Assembly: GCA_030272155.1 (NCBI GenBank)
Contig: CP126193.1
Coordinates: 2,728,001-2,792,000, forward strand
DNA length: 64,000 nucleotides
Direction of reading: 5' to 3'
From: Tetradesmus obliquus
Lineage: Eukaryota; Chlorophyta; Chlorophyceae; Sphaeropleales; Scenedesmaceae
In this document: piece after piece, positions 7,991-30,369 of the stretch
Numbering within the stretch: the stretch's first letter is position 1
Layout: the number at the start of each line of letters is the position of its first letter
Position numbers and translations under genes: made by a program
The notes under the pieces: model-generated
Databases searched by the model: none
The model's input: only the letters and a program-made list of their open reading frames with translations
Told to the model about the DNA's origin: nothing

Positions 7991-10900
7991 CTATGCACTG
8001 CCGCTGCCGTTCCCACTGCCAACCCTACGCATGTGCTGCTCCAACCCCTCGCATGTCACGCCTGCACAGCCCCTGAACCACCTCTGCTGCAAGCCTGGCA
8101 GCGCGTCTGCCAGCGCAGGCAGGCAGGCGTCTGTCAACTGCGGGTTGCGTGCCAGATCCAATTCCTGCAGCTTGGGCTGCAGCCCTGAAGCGATCTCTGC
8201 CACAGAGCTATCCTCCAACCGGCACTCTGCCAGCGTCAGCTGCTGCAGGCCGCACATCCGTGACAGCGCTGCTGCTGCTGCCGAGTTCACGTGCTGCTTC
8301 TCGAGGCTGAGGTGTGTGAGCTGCCGGAACCAGGCCCACCTGACTGCAAAGCCACGCAGCAGTTCTGCAAGCGCGGCGGCATTGCCTGCAGCATCGTCAG
8401 CCGGAGCCCAGTGCACCTCACACAGGCTGAAGTGCACCAGGTGGTGCATTCCTCCGATCACAAGTGCCAACAGCCCAGGGTTCATAGCATCAAGCATCCA
8501 GCCCTGCAGGCAGAGTGACTGTACGTGTGGCAGGTCCGTAAGCCGCAGCAGCATGTCGCGTGCAAGGCTGCTGTGCCCGCCACATACCAGGTGCAGGAAT
8601 CGCACCTTCAGCGCCCTCCAGCCGTCTGCTGCTGCATCGATTGCCTCCGCTCCTGCCCGATATGTTAAGTGTACCGCTGTGAGGGCGGTTAGGCTGGTGA
8701 GCTGCAGCAGCTCTGCTGCTGGTGCAACCTCTTGCTCAATGTTGTGCAGTGTCAGCTGCCTGAGCTGCTTCAGTGGCAGCAGGCAGGTCGCGGGTGTGAT
8801 GTTGCCGGCTGAGAGTGCCAGGAGGTTGGGTGGCAACACGTGGTGCTGCCTCAGCGTGAGTTCCCAGCCAACCAGCAAGCTGGTCAGGGCTGCAGCGGGA
8901 CACAGGGCAACAGCAGCAGTTGCAGCCATACAGGTAAGGCATTGCTGATGTGGTTAACGGTAACGTGGGCGTTTGTCACATGACACTGGCGCTGCATGGA
9001 ACACTTGGGGAGGCAGAGCCAAAGCTATGCAGAGCAGCTGACCGTGCCTGACGAGTTCTGTGCAGTGTGCTGGTGTTCTTCACAGAGAGTTTGCATATGT
9101 TCTGTAGACACGTGTATACCAATGTGTTGGACATACACCGCCAGTTGAAGAGCTGGCATCACCATGGGCTCACATCAAATTGGCAGCTGGACTACCCATC
9201 ACGACAGCAGCAGCAGCCGCTGCTGCTGCATGGCAGCATGCCTCACCTGTCAGGTGCCCCAGCTGCAGCGCCCCTTTCTCTGCACTCTGCAGCATTTCGA
9301 GCTGCAGCTCCAGCAGTGAAGCTGGCAGGTGCTGCAGTGGGGCCCCATTTGCCAGCTGCAGTGCAGCAGAAGCAGCGGAAGCGTGGCGTCAAGCCTCAAA
9401 GAGCCTCTGCACTGCAACATGAATCCATTCTTCGACAGCTGCTGTGCTTTAGCCAGAAGCTTTTGCAGGCTGCCCTCGATACTTGCATGCTGTGCCAAGG
9501 TCAAAGAGATGCATGACGCAGCTGGATGCCGTGCTAAGCATCTTCTTGGCCAGTAATCATCTGCAAGCAATGCAGCAGCTCCTCTTGAGCTCCATGGCAA
9601 CTGCGCTGCGCTAGCTGCAGCTCAAATACATTCCTTGTGTGTCGCCTACCTCTGGCAAACTTAGGCTCGTCAGGTTGGTCAGTGCACCAAATCCGCAGAG
9701 CACTGGTGCATAGCTGACTGCGCCATCGAAGCTACAGCCACGCAGCCGAAGCTCATGCAGCTGCTGCAGTGACGGCAGCACTTTGCTCAGCCTGCCCATC
9801 AACGCATGAGCGCCTGAGGCAGCTTCATCTCTAGGGACCCGCAGGTGTAGCTCCAGGCTGGTCAGGGTGCTGCCAGGCAATGCTTGCAGGATGGCAGCGC
9901 TTTCCAAGCCAGCGCCTGCCAGCTTGCAGGAGCGTATGCGCAGGCCATCTGGGCCTGCTGCTGCTGCTTTCTGCAGCGCTGCTGCATAGGTCAGCTCTGT
10001 TGCTGATTGCTGAGAGGTGCTGGGACATGTGGTGCAACCGAACACTGAAGGCGAGAGCTGCAGCTCGAGAGAGTCCACAAGGCAGCCACACTTGGCTAGC
10101 CACCCTACACGAAAGCAGAGAAGCGAATTGTTGAAAGTAAGCAGTGCATGCGCCTCGTGCTGATGCCATCTGAGACTACAGTGTGCATAGCAAGCACAGG
10201 CGTAACTGTGCCAAATTAGGCATTTTAATGCTACTTATGCACAGCATCAACAAAACTGGGCATACCGGATGGCTCCAAAATATCACCGGAAAAGAAAAAG
10301 AATTGAGGCCTTCCGGTGATTGACTAAAAAATCCAAATAATATGTCTGCGGGTTCCGGTGATATTTAATTTAAACCTCGGAAAATGTTTCTTAGCCTCAT
10401 TTTCCGCTCGGATCGCTGTCGATAACGCTGTATACGCTATTCTACAGATCCTAAAGCATCTAAGCGCAACTAGATGCGGCAATCGCCGGTTTGCTTGCCG
10501 TGCGTGAAGCCGAGCATGATCAGAACAATCCGAAAGGCTAGCTGCAGATCGAGAGCTCTCGAGGCTAGAGCCAGCGCGGCTGCAGCTCCTGGAAAGAAAC
10601 TAGGCACGCCTCCTGGCAGTGGGAAGTGTCAGACAGCAGCAGCAGCAGCACCAGTGGTCCCTGCTGCAGCAGCAGAGGCAGCGCCACAGCAGGAGCAGCA
10701 GCAACAACAGGAGAAGGATGATGCTAAGCAGGATGATGCTAAGCAGGATGATGCTAAGCATGCACTGCATGTTGCAATGCCTGTCGCACTGGTGCATCCT
10801 GCAGTTGGCACCTTCGGCAATATTATTTTTTTAGACATGCGTCAGTGCCGGTGATACTTAAAAAAGCCCCCCAAAAAGCCACGCAGGCTTCTGGTGATAT

Positions 10901-15401: not shown

Positions 15402-17562
15402 ATGCTCGTGAAAATAGCTTCATTGCCTAAGTGCTTCAGCCCAGGGCGTAGCAGCAGGCTTGCTGGGGTGGCAGTAGCAACACTGCAGAGGCGTGGCACG
15501 ATGTGCAGGAATCATGCGCCAGCAGCGTGGGCTGAAACGAAGCTCTCGGATGCCAAGTATGCATCTGAGCTCGCAGCAGCCTGTGAGGCTGTGACACTGG
15601 CCTCCAAGCTGTGTCAGGTGAGCAGTACTGTACCAGGCAGCGCCTCATCCTGCGCCTTGCACTGCACTGTTGCACTGCCAGATTTCAAGTTGTGGTGTGA
15701 CTGAGCAGCAATGGTCTGTCAAGTCTAGGACTGTACGTATTGGATGTTGCACTGCACGTCTTGGATGGTGGACTGGTGCCAGGGGAGTACGCGATCCTAT
15801 TTTCACTGCATCCTGGTGTGCCTGCGCACGTGCTGCCTGGCCACTGCTGACATCATGTCTGATTGTCACTTTGTCACTGCAGAGGGTGCAGCAGCAGTTG
15901 ACCACCTCAGAGAAAGCAGACAAGGACGATGCATCCCCTGTCACAGTCGCGGACTATGGTGAGCTGTGCATTGAGCCAGCGTACAACAGGCAGTAGCAGT
16001 GGCCATGGCTGCCACCTCAGCAGCGTCACTTTAATCTACTCATTTGACGCCACGAGCCTGAAGCCTGTCGCATCACTGAAGTGTGCAGTGAGCTGTGTGC
16101 CTTGGCAGTTGGTCAGCAAGGCGCGCTGTACCAGCAGCAGCAGTGGCCACGGGTGCCACCTGGCAAGCAGTGCTAGCTGTGGCCACAACTTGACGCCTGG
16201 CTGGCGTGAACCAAGTGGTTGCACTTGGTTGCTGCATGTGACGTAGTTCTATGCAAATGTGTTGCTGTTCAACTGACAAGCAGCAGTTGCCATTTCAGGC
16301 GATGGTACACCACACAGCACATGCCAGACCCCCACCTGCACTCCCTGCATTGTGCTTGGAACGTTTGCCTGCATGCAGGCTGTAACTCTTTATACTCCCA
16401 GCTCGACCTGCTGCTTGGACACTGCCGCACAGCAGGCAGCCACGTGCGCAGCACACCCCTGTCGCATTCACATGCATGCTGGCTGTATGATTTGCATCTC
16501 TTTAACACGAACACTGCTCTGCCGTGATACAACAGGTGCGCAGGCGCTGGTGGCGTGGGTGCTGCAGCGTGCAGACCCCTCGCTGAAGCTGTCTATGGTG
16601 GCAGAGGAGGACTCAGCAGACCTCATGTGAGCGATGCAACAGCAGCAGCAGCAGCAGCAGCAACAGCAACAGCATGCACGCAAGCAGCAGACAGGCCTGA
16701 AGTTGCTTGTAGTGCATGCAGCCACCAATGCCAGCTACAACAGTGAGCAGTAGCCCCAGAGGGTGGCAGCAATGGCAGTCCGATCAAGCTGTGTGCAGCG
16801 CTGCACGTGTGCTTGCCCTTACAGTTGAAATGAGTGCTCTGGCTAGCAGACTTCGGCATCACACCAGCAGCAGGAGACCTTCAATGGCTGTAAGATAGCA
16901 GCTGCTTCTGTTGCGTACGGACCGCATGCTTGAATCATGACAGCCACCAGCCACTGCGCTGTGTTTACTGTTATCTGTGCGGCCGTCTGCTGCTGCGTGT
17001 TCTGAGAGAGATTGCATTACGTCGGTGTGCTGTGCTGTGCTGTGCTGTGCTGTGCTGTGCTGTGCGGCTCTGCAGCGCGCCGTCTGGTGCGGCCATGCTG
17101 GCGCGCATCACGCAGCTCATCAACAGCGTGCTGGCAGAGGAGGAAGGCGCAGCACCGCTGAGCGAGCAGGACGTGGTGGGGCTCATCGGTGCGTGGCAGG
17201 ATGGGTTTTTTGCAGTGTGCTACTGGGCATGACAGTCTTTGTGTGACGCTCGTGTGTTGGTGCATGGCTGTGATCGGATGTGGCTGCTAGTGACCCCAGC
17301 GCACAACAGTGGCAGCTGCACTTCTCAGGAAATGCAACACTGCGCAGCCTGCGCACAGCCCATAAACCTTTCCGTTTGTTATAGTCCTAGCGGGATATAT
17401 CTCTTCGACGCCCACTTCGGTCGACTACTTCCATCTGCTTCACATGCTAAATAACTGCGGAAACTCCAGTTAACAGCGTCTGGGCAACAGCCACATCAGC
17501 GGCTGCATGCGCTCATGTGGGTACCCAGTGCCTCTCTGTGTGCCTGACTCTTCACCTGTTTG

Positions 17563-17624
<62 letters not shown>

Positions 17625-18999
17625 GTCTGTCAGAGCTGGGTGGCAGCCAGGGCGGGCCACAGGGCAGGCACTGGGTGCTGGACCCCATCGATGGCACGCG
17701 CGGCTTCGTCGGCATGCGGCAGTATGCGGTGTGCCTCGGCATGCTGCAGGTAAGGCTTGTAACAGATTCATGACTGATTCATGACTTTTAGAGTCGCAGT
17801 GAGGGGATGTTTTTGTGCATGAGAGTACACCCTGTGAGTGGCTTAGGGATTGTTTGCGCAGAATGCGGTGTGCCTGGGCATGCTGCAGGTGGGCAAGGCT
17901 CGTACGGAGGCTTTAGGTTAAGGTTTATGTTTAAGTGAGGATTGTATGCACAGAGAGAGTGGCTGCGCAGTACGCGGCGTGCCTGGGCATGCTGCAGGTG
18001 AAGCCTGTAAGGCTGATCGGTGCTTCGAGAAGCGACCGTTAGGGGATGGAGGTGTACATGAGAATGCACCTTGTAAGCGGCATAGGGTTTTGGTTGCGCA
18101 GTGTGCCTGGGCATGCTGCAGGTGGGCGGGGCTCGTACAGAGGCTTTAGGTTTAGGGTTTTGAGGGAGGTTTGGTGATGAACACGCACAGGGGCTGGCTG
18201 CACAGTGCGGTCTGCCTGGGCATGCTGGAGGTGGGTGGGGCCGCCAACTGAGCCTTGTAGAGAAGAGGCAGTGATGGCTGTGCATGCATCACAGAATGTA
18301 TTGAGTGAATGTGTCGCACATGACATGATTGTGCACTAGGCGGTGTGCCTCGGCATGCTGCAGGTGAGGCTGGGCAGTGCGGCTGTGGCATGTGCCGTCA
18401 TGAGAGTGCTCCTAAGACGCCAAACCACACAGCTGCTTGTCCAACGCCAGTGCTGTCATGTTGACGAAGGTATTCAGTTGCGCCTTCAACCGCTCTACAG
18501 CAGTGCATGATTATGCATACAATGCACGTGTGTGTTGCTGCGCCGCCTGCAGGATGGTGATGTGGTGTTGGGCGTGTTGGGCTGCCCCAATTTGCCTCAA
18601 GGCGCGGTGGGCGATGACGACGGTGGCGCAGGTGGGCAGGGCGCTGAGCGGGGATGCATGCAATGCGTGTTGGTTGCTGTTGCAAACACCTACATGATGT
18701 GGCTGAGGAGAAAGACTGCGGCACGCGCAGGCTGCCTGCTGCCATGAATCTCAAGCACTTTACAGTGTAGAGAGGGCAACATGTGCAGCGCTGCCTGAAC
18801 TGCAAGTTGAGCTGTGGGTTCCAAGGTTCCACCTGTGGGCACTGCCCTCAACCTCGTTAACATGCTTGTCTTGTTGGCACATGATTGAATCGCATGCATG
18901 TTCCTTCTCTGCCGCAGCTGCTGCGGGCAAGTCCAGCAGCGCAGACGTGGGCTGCCTCTTCCTAGCACACCGCGGCGCCGGCGCTTACGTGGCACCCCT

Positions 19000-19030
<31 letters not shown>

Positions 19031-20252
19031 TTGCGGCGCATCAGCGTGCGCGATGAGTCGGACATGGGCAATGCCCGCTTCATGGAGAGCTACGAGAGCC
19101 GCCACTCAGACCACAGCTTCACTGCTGCAGTGGTGAGTGGTGACAATGCAGTGAATGCGGCTTAACGAGGTTGGTGCGGCCGTCAGTGCAACTGACTTAG
19201 TTGGTTGTTGTCGTGGGTGGAAAATGAGCCTGCGTGATGATGGTACATGCAGTACATCAAGTCAGCCAGTGCTGGAAAGCACACATTATGTGGCTGCTTC
19301 AAGCTGTGCTGATTGAATGGACGTGTGCTGTGCTTGCAGGCCAAGCAGGCTGGCGTGTCGCTGCCGCCGCTGCGCATGGACAGCCAAGTGAAGTACGGTG
19401 AGCAGCAGCAGCAGCAGCGGCAGCAGCAGCAGCGGCAGCAGCAGCAGCAGCAGCAGCAGTAGCGACAGCTCTTGTGATGTGCCTGCAGTACGTGCTGCAC
19501 CCTGATGAGCTTCTGTTGCTTGAAACACAGCACGCTACTGCTATCTGTTGCTGCATGCTTCTGCTTTCTTATCGGTGAGTGGCGCCGCTGGGCCACCGCA
19601 TCAGGACCTACACGCCTAGCTCCTCACGATCATGCAACTTCATCTTGTGCACACGTGGCAATGCTACTGCGTGGCTAAAACCACTCAACATGCGTGCCGC
19701 AGGGCTGCTGTCACGGGGTGACGCGGGCATCTTCATGCGCTTCCCGCCGCCCAGCTACCGCGAGAAGATCTGGGACCACGCTGCGGGCTGCGTCATCGTG
19801 GAGGAGGCGGGCGGCAAGGTGCGGTGCTGCGCGGTTTTGCGCTGTTTTGTTTCATGTCAGCGGGGTTGGTATGTGCTGCTGAGGATGCGATGGTGGGCTT
19901 GGTGTAGTTTAACCTGTTGCATTGCTTTGCCCGCAGCCTAGGCTGCAGGCCTGCATACAGCACTACAATCGAGGGTGGGTGCACAACTGTCGACGCTTGT
20001 GTGGCACAGCTCGCTCCAGAGCTGGGTACCCTTAGAGATTCAATACCAAACATGTTATGACCGGCGCCGCTGCTGCTCTGTCCTGCTGCCGCCTGCTGGG
20101 CCGTTTTGCAGGTGACTGACGCCAGCGGCGCGCGCTTGGACTTTGCGCGCGGCCGCTGGCTGGACCTTGACGGCGGCATCATCGCAGCGCCGCCAGCCGT
20201 GCACGGTGCAGTGCTCGCTGCAGCACAAGCCGTGCGCGGCAGCAAGCTGTGA
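15402..20252 (+). CDS. SAL1: 3'(2'),5'-bisphosphate nucleotidase, SAL1/HAL2-like
   Basis: Hydrolyses 3'-phosphoadenosine 5'-phosphate (PAP) to AMP. In plants SAL1 acts in plastids and mitochondria and sets PAP retrograde signalling. Ten exons join in phase: 15402-15617, 15883-15958, 16536-16626, 17076-17188, 17634-17749, 18553-18631, 18918-19132, 19340-19397, 19703-19818 and 20112-20252, giving 406 residues. Metal and catalytic motifs of the lithium-sensitive phosphatase fold are present: VAEEDSADL, DPIDGTRGF (about residues 182-190) and WDHAAGCVIVEEAGGK (from about 345). SPVTVADYG and MDSQVKYG also match. The first 50 residues are basic and Ser/Arg-rich, like an organelle transit peptide. 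Start at ATG 15402; the frame opens earlier only from a TTG. A poly-Ser run interrupts exon 7. The intron 17750-18552 contains the micro-exon array. Confidence 0.93.
16638..16675 (+). repeat. CAG-rich run just after the donor of exon 3
   Basis: CAG and CAA triplets start about 11 bases after the GTGAGC donor at 16627. Confidence 0.8.
17025..17064 (+). repeat. (TGTGC)n pentanucleotide before acceptor of exon 4
   Basis: About eight TGTGC units ending 11 bases before the acceptor AG at 17074-17075. Confidence 0.9.
17564..17622 (+). repeat. (CTG)n array before acceptor of exon 5
   Basis: About 20 uninterrupted CTG triplets, ending 9 bases before the acceptor AG of exon 17634-17749. Confidence 0.95.
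17725..18373 (+). repeat. Array of duplicated exon-5 ends (micro-exon copies) in SAL1-like intron
   Basis: The last 27 bases of exon 5 (QYAVCLGMLQ region) recur at 17862-17888, 17971-17997, 18102-18121, 18206-18230 and 18340-18363. Each copy has an AG just before it and a GT just after, giving potential micro-exons of 27, 27, 20, 25 and 24 bases. The 27- and 24-base copies keep frame (NAVCLGMLQ, YAACLGMLQ, AVCLGMLQ). Spacers alternate in type: those before copies 1 and 3 resemble each other (GGGGATG, CATGAGA.TGCACC-like), as do those before copies 2 and 4 (GGGC..GGCTCGTAC, GGCTTTAGGTT). This implies duplication of a two-copy unit. Confidence 0.9.
19398..19460 (+). repeat. (CAG)n array directly at the donor of exon 8
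   Basis: CAG with CGG interruptions, running out of the GTGAGCAG donor sequence itself. Confidence 0.9.
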
Positions 20253-20470: not shown

Positions 20471-20509
20471 CTGAAGCTGCGCTGTGGACCGTCCACAGCG
20501 CAGCTTCAG
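20471..20509. repeat. Perfect 19-bp palindrome
   Basis: Arms 20471-20489 and 20491-20509 are exact inverse complements around one central base. Confidence 0.95.
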
Positions 20510-20629
20510 CAACTGCTCTGCTGGCTGTAAAACCCCTCAGCACACATCCAAGCAAGTACACTTTTGAACTTTACGAGAGCACTTGCTTGGATGTGTGCTG
20601 AGGGGTGATACAGCCAGCAGAGCAGTTGC
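20509..20629. repeat. 49-bp inverted repeat, hairpin-forming
   Basis: Arms 20509-20557 and 20581-20629 pair over 49 bases with two mismatches and a 23-base loop. A + strand RNA would fold into a long near-perfect hairpin. Candidate foldback element or small-RNA precursor; no product can be claimed. Confidence 0.85.
20526..20530 (+). terminator. Candidate poly(A) signal TGTAA for SAL1-like gene
   Basis: First TGTAA after the stop at 20252. It sits in the left arm of the long hairpin, at the two positions where the arms do not match. Confidence 0.35.
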
Positions 20630-21309
20630 GAAAGGAAAGCAGCATGGATATGGATGTGAATTCAAGGGTAACACAGCTTTTGTGCGTAATGGGCTGGCAG
20701 CTGGTTGCCGGACAGTGCAATGCACTGAGAAGTGGGAGGCCAGCGTTCAGCAGCACGAGTGCAACTGGGTATGTTGAATCGTACAGAGAGGATTTCAGCT
20801 TTCTTCAGTGCTTTCGAAAGCATACGCACAAATTGCACAGCCGCCCAACCAAGCCCAGAACCCGACAAGAACTCAGAGAGAACACACAGAGGCGGATCAG
20901 CAGCTGCGTTCGCAGAAGTGGTCACATGTGTTGGTAGCCCGCTTCTTATATATCTTTACTGTACCAAACAAGCACAGCACCTCGGTCCCATATCTTACCG
21001 ACATCGACACAAACTGGATCTGTCCTGAAGCGTCTGACACCCTTCAATCGGGTTTTTTGCGTGTGAACAATTATATTCGTCCACTTTGGAGACATCAAGG
21101 TGACTTGCAGGGAGAGTTGGCACCTGCTGTGCCCTAGCTCAGAGCTACCACCCTCTCATCATCCTGCAGCATTCCGTTGCCTTACCGTTCTTTTGATTTT
21201 TAACGTTTCAACATGCACATTGGGCTCGGATATCCATCGGCCTCCTTTAGGACAGCAGCCGTGATGGTACCTTCTTTTTAGCATAGCGTACTGGTTTCTG
21301 CCATCAACA
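20630..21309. other. Intergenic region before the SAND-ARID gene
   Basis: No convincing gene. Frames on both strands are short or start with TTG. The part from about 21140 is T-rich and likely 5' UTR or promoter. Confidence 0.4.
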
Positions 21310-29300: not shown

Positions 29301-30217
29301 CGCGCGTACAGCGTGTGCCACGTGCCGCAGGCACCCACCCTACAGGTTTGCTTGTGGGGCTGCGGGTGCATGCATGCCGGCTGTAACTGCCATCAAGGCT
29401 GCAATGCATATGCTGCTGCACCTGACGCGAGTGCCGCATCTGGCCTGCATGTGGTTCATGTGCTGTGCGTGGTCCGCATGGCCTCAGCTGCCCCTGGCTT
29501 TGTGTTCCCTGCGGCGACAGGGTGCAACAAACGCATTCTGGGGCAACAGACATGCTGGAGGTGGAGCTTGTGAGGCATACACCTGCGCGCACGCACCGGA
29601 GAGGGCACCTTACTTACCCCAATGGTGTGATATGTGTTGTCAGGACAGGCCCGCATGCCTGCGGCGCGCGTGAATAAATGGGCTCGGCTGGATCTGCAGC
29701 GCTCGAAAGCTCCCAGTGTACTTTGCTGGTGTATTCTTGCTGTGTTTGTGTCGACTGTATTGTGGTATTGGTGTTGCAAGAGCGGGGGTTGTGTTGACGC
29801 TGCTGTGGCAGCTGTGGAGCGGACGCCGCCTGCTGGGGCCTTGCCTTCTGCAGGTGCATCTGCTTAGCCGCTGTACTCATCAATTTAAGGTGCTTTGGGC
29901 CCGGGGTGTTATGTTTGCAGGGATTACGTGAAAAGTTGAGCATAGTCAGCAACGCATGCTTGGGGGGGGGTGTCATGTGCATTGTGTCCCACTCTTGGAC
30001 ACTGTTGGAAAGGAGGCAGTCGTGCTCATGCGGCAGCTGTGCATAGGCTTGCTGCACATTTCTGAGTGCCGCGGCACGTATGCTGGTGTTTCTGTTCGTG
30101 AAACCACCGGTGATTCAGCTCTTTCTCGCTACAGCTACGTCACTGCAGCCTGCCGGTGAAGTTTCTGGTAACATATGGCCTCATTCTTGTCCCGTGCTGT
30201 GCCCCTGCCGTCCTCGC
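26378..30217 (+). other. Gene-free stretch, probable 3' UTR of SAND-ARID transcript or noncoding RNA
   Basis: Strongly T/G-biased on the + strand, rich in TGCATGC, with no coherent coding exon in any frame. Scanning by eye, the first TGTAA on the + strand after the stop is at 29382. Long frames here begin with non-ATG codons or read as Cys/Leu/His noise. Confidence 0.45.
29382..29386 (+). terminator. First TGTAA after the SAND-ARID stop
   Basis: About 3.0 kb after the stop codon at 26377. If used, the 3' UTR is about 3 kb. Confidence 0.3.
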
Positions 30218-30369
30218 TGTAGCAGGGTCCTCCCTACATGACCATTGAATCAAGCTGTAGCAGGGTCCTCCCTACATGACCATTGAATCAAGCTGTAGCA
30301 GGGTCCTCCCTACATGAGCATTGAATCAAGCTGTAGCAGGGTCCTCCCTACATGACCATTGAATCAAGC
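30218..30369. repeat. 38-bp tandem array, four copies
   Basis: Four head-to-tail copies (30218-30255, 30256-30293, 30294-30331 and 30332-30369) of a unit beginning TGTAGCAGGGTCCTCCCTAC. They are identical except for one base in copy 3. The array sits where strand composition switches. Confidence 0.95.

Follow-up and report, generated by a model that had tools for sequence, protein, structure and literature searches.

Tandem copies of the exon 5 donor junction within an intron of the SAL1 gene of Tetradesmus obliquus, and similar arrays at other, mostly putative, splice junctions

Introduction

Introns may contain minisatellites or other long-period tandem repeats, in which copies of a unit follow one another head to tail. 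A different kind of intronic repetition results from tandem exon duplication, which leaves repeated exon-like segments with splice sites that can enter into alternative or mutually exclusive splicing. Tandem duplication across an exon–intron boundary is, in addition, a known route to new introns, as described for the potato RdRp gene (PMC4974935). In the titles and abstract beginnings returned by searches of the open-access literature, we found no description of arrays of exon-edge copies at many places of one genome.

Here we analyze such an array in a gene of the green alga Tetradesmus obliquus, in a 64,000-nt stretch of DNA referred to below as the window (contig CP126193.1, positions 2,728,001–2,792,000), and compare it with further arrays sampled from the same genome. 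A preliminary description of the locus had noted repeated copies of an exon end and had considered them as micro-exons, as donor decoys, or as a neutral relic.

Results

The SAL1 gene and its fifth intron

The array lies in a SAL1/HAL2 gene encoding a 3'(2'),5'-bisphosphate nucleotidase (15501–20252, forward strand), whose exons were placed from protein homology. Exons 1–5 span 15501–15617 (with a tentative start), 15883–15958, 16536–16626, 17076–17188, and 17634–17749; exons 6–10 span 18553–18631, 18918–19132, 19340–19397, 19703–19818, and 20112–20252, the last of which includes the stop codon. Exons 2–10 join into one open frame, which as a whole scores 357.7 bits against TIGR01330, above the curated cut-off of 267.05, as well as 320.9 bits against the solved SAL1 structure in PDB entry 8f9y. 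The gene is a genuine SAL1/HAL2 nucleotidase.

Exon 5 contains the DPIDGT motif, and its last 27 nt (17723–17749, encoding YAVCLGMLQ) are the parent of the array. The host of the array is intron 5 (17750–18552, 803 nt), which has the donor GTAAGG and the acceptor CTGCAG. In the alignment with 8f9y, exon 5 (..QYAVCLGMLQ) continues directly into exon 6 (DGDVVLGVLGCPN..), with no insert and no sign of an extra exon at their junction. Because the two exons are colinear with SAL1, we regard 17749 to 18553 as the normal junction, a splice that would give the full protein without any sequence from intron 5.

The GC content of the window is 58%, and CTG/CAG tracts are frequent throughout; a perfect (CTG)20 tract occupies 17564–17623, just upstream of the exon 5 acceptor. 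On the 3' side of the SAL1 stop codon, positions 20500–20640 hold a long inverted repeat (GCAACTGCTCTGCTGGCTGTA... / ...TACAGCCAGCAGAGCAGTTGC), perhaps a small foldback element, and at 30216–30369 a 38-bp unit is repeated 4.1 times with 98% matches. A search of viral contigs with the SAL1 protein matched five stretches, none of them a relative.

Five copies of the exon 5 end and two kinds of spacer

The 20-mer TGTGCCTSGGCATGCTGCAG, allowing at most three mismatches, occurs at six sites in the window (17730, 17869, 17978, 18102, 18211, and 18344), all on the forward strand, compared to 0.34 expected by chance; six sites were reached in none of 100 shuffles. These are exon 5 itself and five copies in intron 5, separated by distances of 139, 109, 124, 109, and 133 nt. 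Each intronic copy repeats the last 20–27 nt of exon 5, ends at 17888, 17997, 18121, 18230, or 18363, and has AG directly 5' and GT directly 3' (5/5), the AG and GT as had been noted beforehand. Copy 2 (17862–17888) and copy 3 (17971–17997) are both 27 nt long and read NAVCLGMLQ and YAACLGMLQ, respectively, while copy 6 (18340–18363, 24 nt, AVCLGMLQ) is identical to the end of exon 5 over its whole length. The lengths of these three copies had been given correctly; the other two, copy 4 (18102–18121, 20 nt, with about 7 nt lost and its preceding AG at 18100–18101) and copy 5 (18206–18230, 25 nt), are each out of frame when taken singly. All copies and spacers are on the forward strand.

The spacers alternate. 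Spacer 1 (17750–17861, type A) resembles spacer 3 (17998–18094 as cut for the comparison) with a z of 8.7, and spacer 2 (17889–17970, type B) resembles spacer 4 (18122–18203 as cut) with a z of 11.4. The remaining 13 spacer pairs gave z values of 1.2–4.4, and spacer 5 has no clear fit to either type. The paired likenesses make a two-unit duplication well supported, and in this the preliminary description, which had proposed duplication of a dimer, holds.

When the copies are aligned, the AG preceding copies 2, 3, and 5 falls on an exon 5 codon, CAG (GGCATGCGGCAG|TATGCGG). In copy 4 the same AG has seemingly been kept after the loss of about 7 bases, and copy 6 has TAG at that place. Given this alignment, the AG probably came along with the duplication, which would make it inherited coding sequence instead of an independently placed acceptor.

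Tandem Repeats Finder, run at its default threshold, returned no row for the array, indicating that the copies have diverged beyond what this program picks up. As head-to-tail copies of one unit beyond chance, they nevertheless form an intronic tandem repeat (minisatellite), and the duplication crosses an exon–intron boundary, as in intron gain by tandem duplication. Searched against the 104.66-Mb genome (17 contigs), the 649-bp array had a single match, its own locus, in a search that skips simple repeats and scores only the best candidates. The 20-mer TGTGCCTSGGCATGCTGCAG alone is not rare genome-wide at three mismatches: it has 255 forward and 237 reverse matches, compared to 4 and 3 when the pattern is reversed. 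Five loci matched by it (L020–L024, C3:2.34–2.51 Mb) all begin with the same 114-nt repeat, which suggests a dispersed gene family of local extent whose members contain repeats.

Strength of the splice sites

Splice profiles were derived from a small reference set, the 12 donors and 11 acceptors of SAL1 and of a HisN-like gene that is also anchored by homology. Donor and acceptor scores were 11.8 and 6.0 for copy 2, 7.4 and 3.3 for copy 3, 11.8 and 4.8 for copy 4, 8.9 and 0.2 for copy 5, and 12.1 and -0.1 for copy 6. The donors thus fall inside the range of the reference donors (7.4–12.1 vs. 6.6–12.7) and within the best 0.4–4.1% of the other intronic GTs of the gene. None of the copy acceptors (-0.1 to 6.0) reaches even the lowest score among the 11 reference acceptors (6.7–12.9), and two of the five rank mid-range among ordinary intronic AGs. 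Whereas a cassette micro-exon would have sites of normal strength on both sides, the copies combine normal donors with weak acceptors. Predicted RNA folding of intron 5 showed nothing unusual (z -1.14, with 3 of 20 shuffles equally or more stable).

Arrays elsewhere in the genome

A control sample of 15 stretches of 10 kb each, taken at round coordinates from the same genome, was scanned together with the window (214 kb in total). The array detector was modelled on the SAL1 array and required at least three copies of a non-simple 20-mer with at most three mismatches at a spacing of 60–400 nt. Following the initial scans, we made its low-complexity filter stricter; the window gave 7 and then 2 clusters (CAG-rich ones included) before this change and 1 in the final scan.

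In the 214 kb we found 34 arrays, 33 of them outside the window and distributed over 12 of the 15 stretches, compared to none in one dinucleotide shuffle per stretch (150 kb) and none in 50 kb of E. coli. The median spacing is 120 nt (IQR 106–135), and 76 of the 101 spacings lie between 85 and 140. When two copies were accepted as the minimum, the 150 kb contained 46 places, in 14 of the 15 stretches, and the window 6, vs. 0 in the shuffles and 1 in 50 kb of E. coli. With one array of at least three copies in 64 kb, the window has fewer than the sample average. Splice-junction copy arrays are not peculiar to SAL1, and nothing in the array is linked to the SAL1/HAL2 family.

One stretch, L047 (C8:3000001–3010000), holds nine arrays in 10 kb, and many of its recognisable exons are adjoined by copies of their own edges. 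It lies in a Tra1-like region, although the match is weak (22.4 bits, cut-off 27), and an exon piece from it had no PDB match at E ≤ 0.1. At another locus (L063, C1:1–1500) the contig begins with CCCTAAA telomere repeats. Such repeats and the base composition of the window (58% GC, compared to 57% in a table of PMC5966456) are in keeping with a Sphaeropleales green alga such as Tetradesmus.

Most arrays straddle putative donor or acceptor junctions

Classified by eye, 28 of the 34 arrays, counting the one in the window, extend across a splice junction. Fifteen, SAL1 among them, are of donor type, consisting of exon end, GT, and intron head, with the exon as the first copy; 13 are of acceptor type, consisting of intron tail, AG, and exon start, with the exon as the last copy. 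For arrays whose exons lack homology support, the splice-junction class is putative. Of the other six, L043 is a glutamine-rich repeat in coding sequence, L047:7233 involves a whole exon, L050:1566 is the edge of a stop codon, L053 is a simple repeat, and L055 and L057:8651 have no clear class. At L050:1523–1979, an apparent ABCB coding end (AEASSDEEVDGEPLEPLPAALARGRKE, then TGA) recurs four times, so that stop-codon edges may also be echoed.

A script that located the junctions placed the exon copy at the expected end of the array in all 29 arrays examined. This is a check of the classification by eye and not a blind one; the junction strings were taken from the copy judged by eye to be the exon. 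These 29 are 27 of the 28 junction arrays (L052:3697 was left out) plus two arrays of the L038 gene, and one of them, L047:2894, is uninformative since its exon copy at 2769 is missing from the list. An automatic splice-signal test placed 24 of the 34 arrays above column shuffles at p ≤ 0.05. Among the 28 classed arrays, no more than 17 had a best signal of the type and strand assigned by eye, a shortfall due in part to the palindromic nature of CTGCAG.

Examples anchored by homology

The HisN-like gene (C7, L033/L038) scores 192.6 bits against 5eq7. At 4 of its 5 exon edges tested, the adjacent intron contains an echo matching at least 21 of 24 bases, compared to 17 of 24 for the largest control; the gene was found through a search for the SAL1 domain family and kept for showing arrays, so 4/5 is not a random rate. 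One of its exons is preceded by acceptor echoes and followed by donor echoes. In SAL1 an adjacent-intron echo is present at only 1 of 18 exon edges. In this edge test SAL1 exon 1 was taken to end 2 nt beyond its true end, and HisN exon 2 to begin 1 nt early.

An ABCB transporter exon has five acceptor echoes, and an exon of an oligopeptidase B gene has acceptor echoes as well. Among nine array exon pieces scanned against Pfam, four had matches, two of them above the cut-off and both from the oligopeptidase exon (alone and within a longer piece); the other five, one of which comes from a doubtful frame, had none. Most array exons are without homology support, and the remaining genes are identified by eye at most. 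An ABCB echo copy searched against the genome gave 6 matches, all of them copies of its own locus. A mobile-element origin was considered and rejected on the ground that both this echo and the 649-bp SAL1 array are confined to one place in searches that score only the best candidates.

How the copies change

Changes were assigned to codon positions in ten arrays chosen for a recognisable exon and frame, leaving out SAL1 copies 4 and 5 (because of indels) and the L052b copy at 8096. Of the changes confined to a single non-exon copy, 17, 17, and 35 fall on codon positions 1, 2, and 3 (p = 0.003 vs. one third); these changes lie between neutral and constrained. Exon-private changes number 1, 1, and 8, and shared variants 2, 1, and 23; the latter resemble past states of a functional exon, as captured by its copies. 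Between non-exon copies, 109 of 1768 bases differ at positions 1 and 2 and 186 of 884 at position 3. The adjoining intron (up to 40 nt) differs at 1103 of 2080 ungapped bases, a figure inflated by indels.

In the ten arrays measured, the exonic parts resemble one another more closely overall than the spacers do. In the ABCB array, which is a mosaic, the exon parts of copies 2 and 5 agree at 97% and their spacers at 60%, and an oligopeptidase array has alternating spacers, as in SAL1. The opposite is seen in L038a, where spacers 1 and 3 agree at 98%, compared to 89% for their exon parts, and some arrays, such as L047:8471–8659, are alike over the whole unit. The overall exonic likeness and the third-codon bias are not accounted for by simple decay.

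Of 86 non-exon copies, 75 retain the splice dinucleotide GT or AG (donors 40/45, acceptors 35/41), compared to about 66 predicted from adjoining exon bases, in arrays that were not selected blind. Two L044 copies were dropped from this count because the junction is one base off; with them included, donors are kept in 40 of 47.

Discussion

Origin of the SAL1 array

We assign a probability of roughly 0.7 to the following explanation: the SAL1 array arose by tandem duplication of a unit of about 110–140 bp straddling the donor junction of exon 5 and intron 5, it is one among many splice-edge echo arrays of this genome, and its copies exchange sequence. Such an array would start from a short tandem duplication that happens to span a splice junction, an anatomy that can be read from the DNA. 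The duplication would be tolerated because the outermost copy stays exon, namely the first copy at a donor junction and the last at an acceptor junction, and the inner copies would leave with the intron. Further duplications, sometimes of two units as the alternating spacers support, would enlarge the array, and the mosaic copies suggest that short tracts may be exchanged among copies and with the functional exon. If such exchange continues while the spacers drift, the exonic edges tend to remain alike and the spacers do not. On this best reading, duplication across splice junctions is frequent in this alga and SAL1 intron 5 is an older, diverged case.

The explanation accommodates the anatomy and recurrence of the arrays, the alternation of spacers, and the unequal conservation observed in the measured arrays. 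Against it stand the conserved spacers of L038a, the 17/28 agreement of the automatic test, the small share of array exons supported by homology, and the presence of an echo at a single one of the 18 SAL1 edges; furthermore, the exonic likeness, the lean toward third positions, and the GT/AG excess could mean that the copies are used.

Alternatively, the copies could be no more than inert tandem duplications that decay neutrally, with neither exchange nor function. This is close to the neutral relic of the preliminary description, which came nearest among the readings offered there and yet missed the recurrence at many splice junctions of the genome. Inert decay would account for the anatomy of a junction-straddling duplication, for the indels in SAL1 copies 4 and 5, for the whole-unit likeness at L047:8471–8659, and for L038a with its more similar spacers, but exon-like parts that are overall more alike than spacers, to a degree that simple decay does not predict, together with the third-position bias and the mosaic copies, make us doubt it. 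We regard as comparably doubtful the far-reaching view that, extrapolated from the sample, exon-edge copies stand beside thousands of junctions and are kept alike at coding resolution, either as competing splice sites or as a gene-conversion archive. In the archive variant, which we judge jointly with it and at the same low odds, copies would overwrite the real exon edge and be overwritten in turn through gene conversion.

Two further readings give the SAL1 copies a role in splicing. As decoy donors, they would compete with the exon 5 donor and bring about regulated intron retention or slower SAL1 splicing. Their rank among the best intronic GTs of the gene points this way, as does the GT/AG retention slightly above that of adjoining exon bases; however, the excess is small in arrays that were detected through their conserved edges, three copies, two from L054 and one from L047, have GC instead of GT, and the folding of intron 5 is ordinary, which leaves us thinking the idea unlikely. 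It can overlap with the explanation by junction-straddling duplication, since that explanation concerns origin. As optional micro-exons, a reading offered in the preliminary description, the copies would add 8–9 residues (NAVCLGMLQ, YAACLGMLQ, or AVCLGMLQ) to the strand that follows DPIDGT and so create SAL1 isoforms. All five are flanked by AG and GT, three of the five lengths (27, 27, and 24 among 27, 27, 20, 25, and 24 nt) are divisible by three, and the five together total 123 nt with an open joined frame, as worked out by hand. The acceptors are weak, however, two of them no better than mid rank; copies 4 and 5 singly break the frame; another donor-type array, L046, has no AG at the start of its copies 2 and 3; and both the colinear normal junction and the solved SAL1 structure have no insert at that place. 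Acceptor strength and reading frame lead us to discard micro-exons as the best explanation, and we consider them very unlikely. The interpretation given in the preliminary description is, overall, partly supported.

Should the sample be typical, repeated duplication at splice junctions has enlarged the introns of this genome, and rows of good-looking splice sites stand beside the real ones. The arrays would then be a natural test of how the algal spliceosome chooses among near-identical neighbouring sites, a source of intron growth that can be viewed at several ages, and a reason for caution in gene prediction. In a published table, introns of T. obliquus average 462 bp, compared to 230–302 bp in the three other Sphaeropleales listed (PMC5966456), a greater length on which the arrays may bear.

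Comparison with known systems

The gene belongs to the SAL1/HAL2 nucleotidases, and the array is not tied to that family. Like intronic minisatellites, the algal arrays are head to tail, with a unit of about 120 bp, divergent spacers, and multi-unit growth; unlike them, they have a unit that, as judged by eye, is tied to a splice junction in 28 of the 34 arrays, and its exonic half is better conserved overall in the ten arrays measured. With tandem exon duplication they share exon-like repeats with splice sites inside one intron, but the algal copies are fragments of exon edges with one good splice site (as scored in SAL1) and not whole exons. The potato RdRp case (PMC4974935) is alike in that a local duplication spans the exon–intron boundary and the splice sites are inherited from the parent. 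It differs in that one duplication gave rise to one new spliced intron with RNA support, whereas in the alga repeated duplications appear to have left 3–7 copies inside existing introns at many sampled places.
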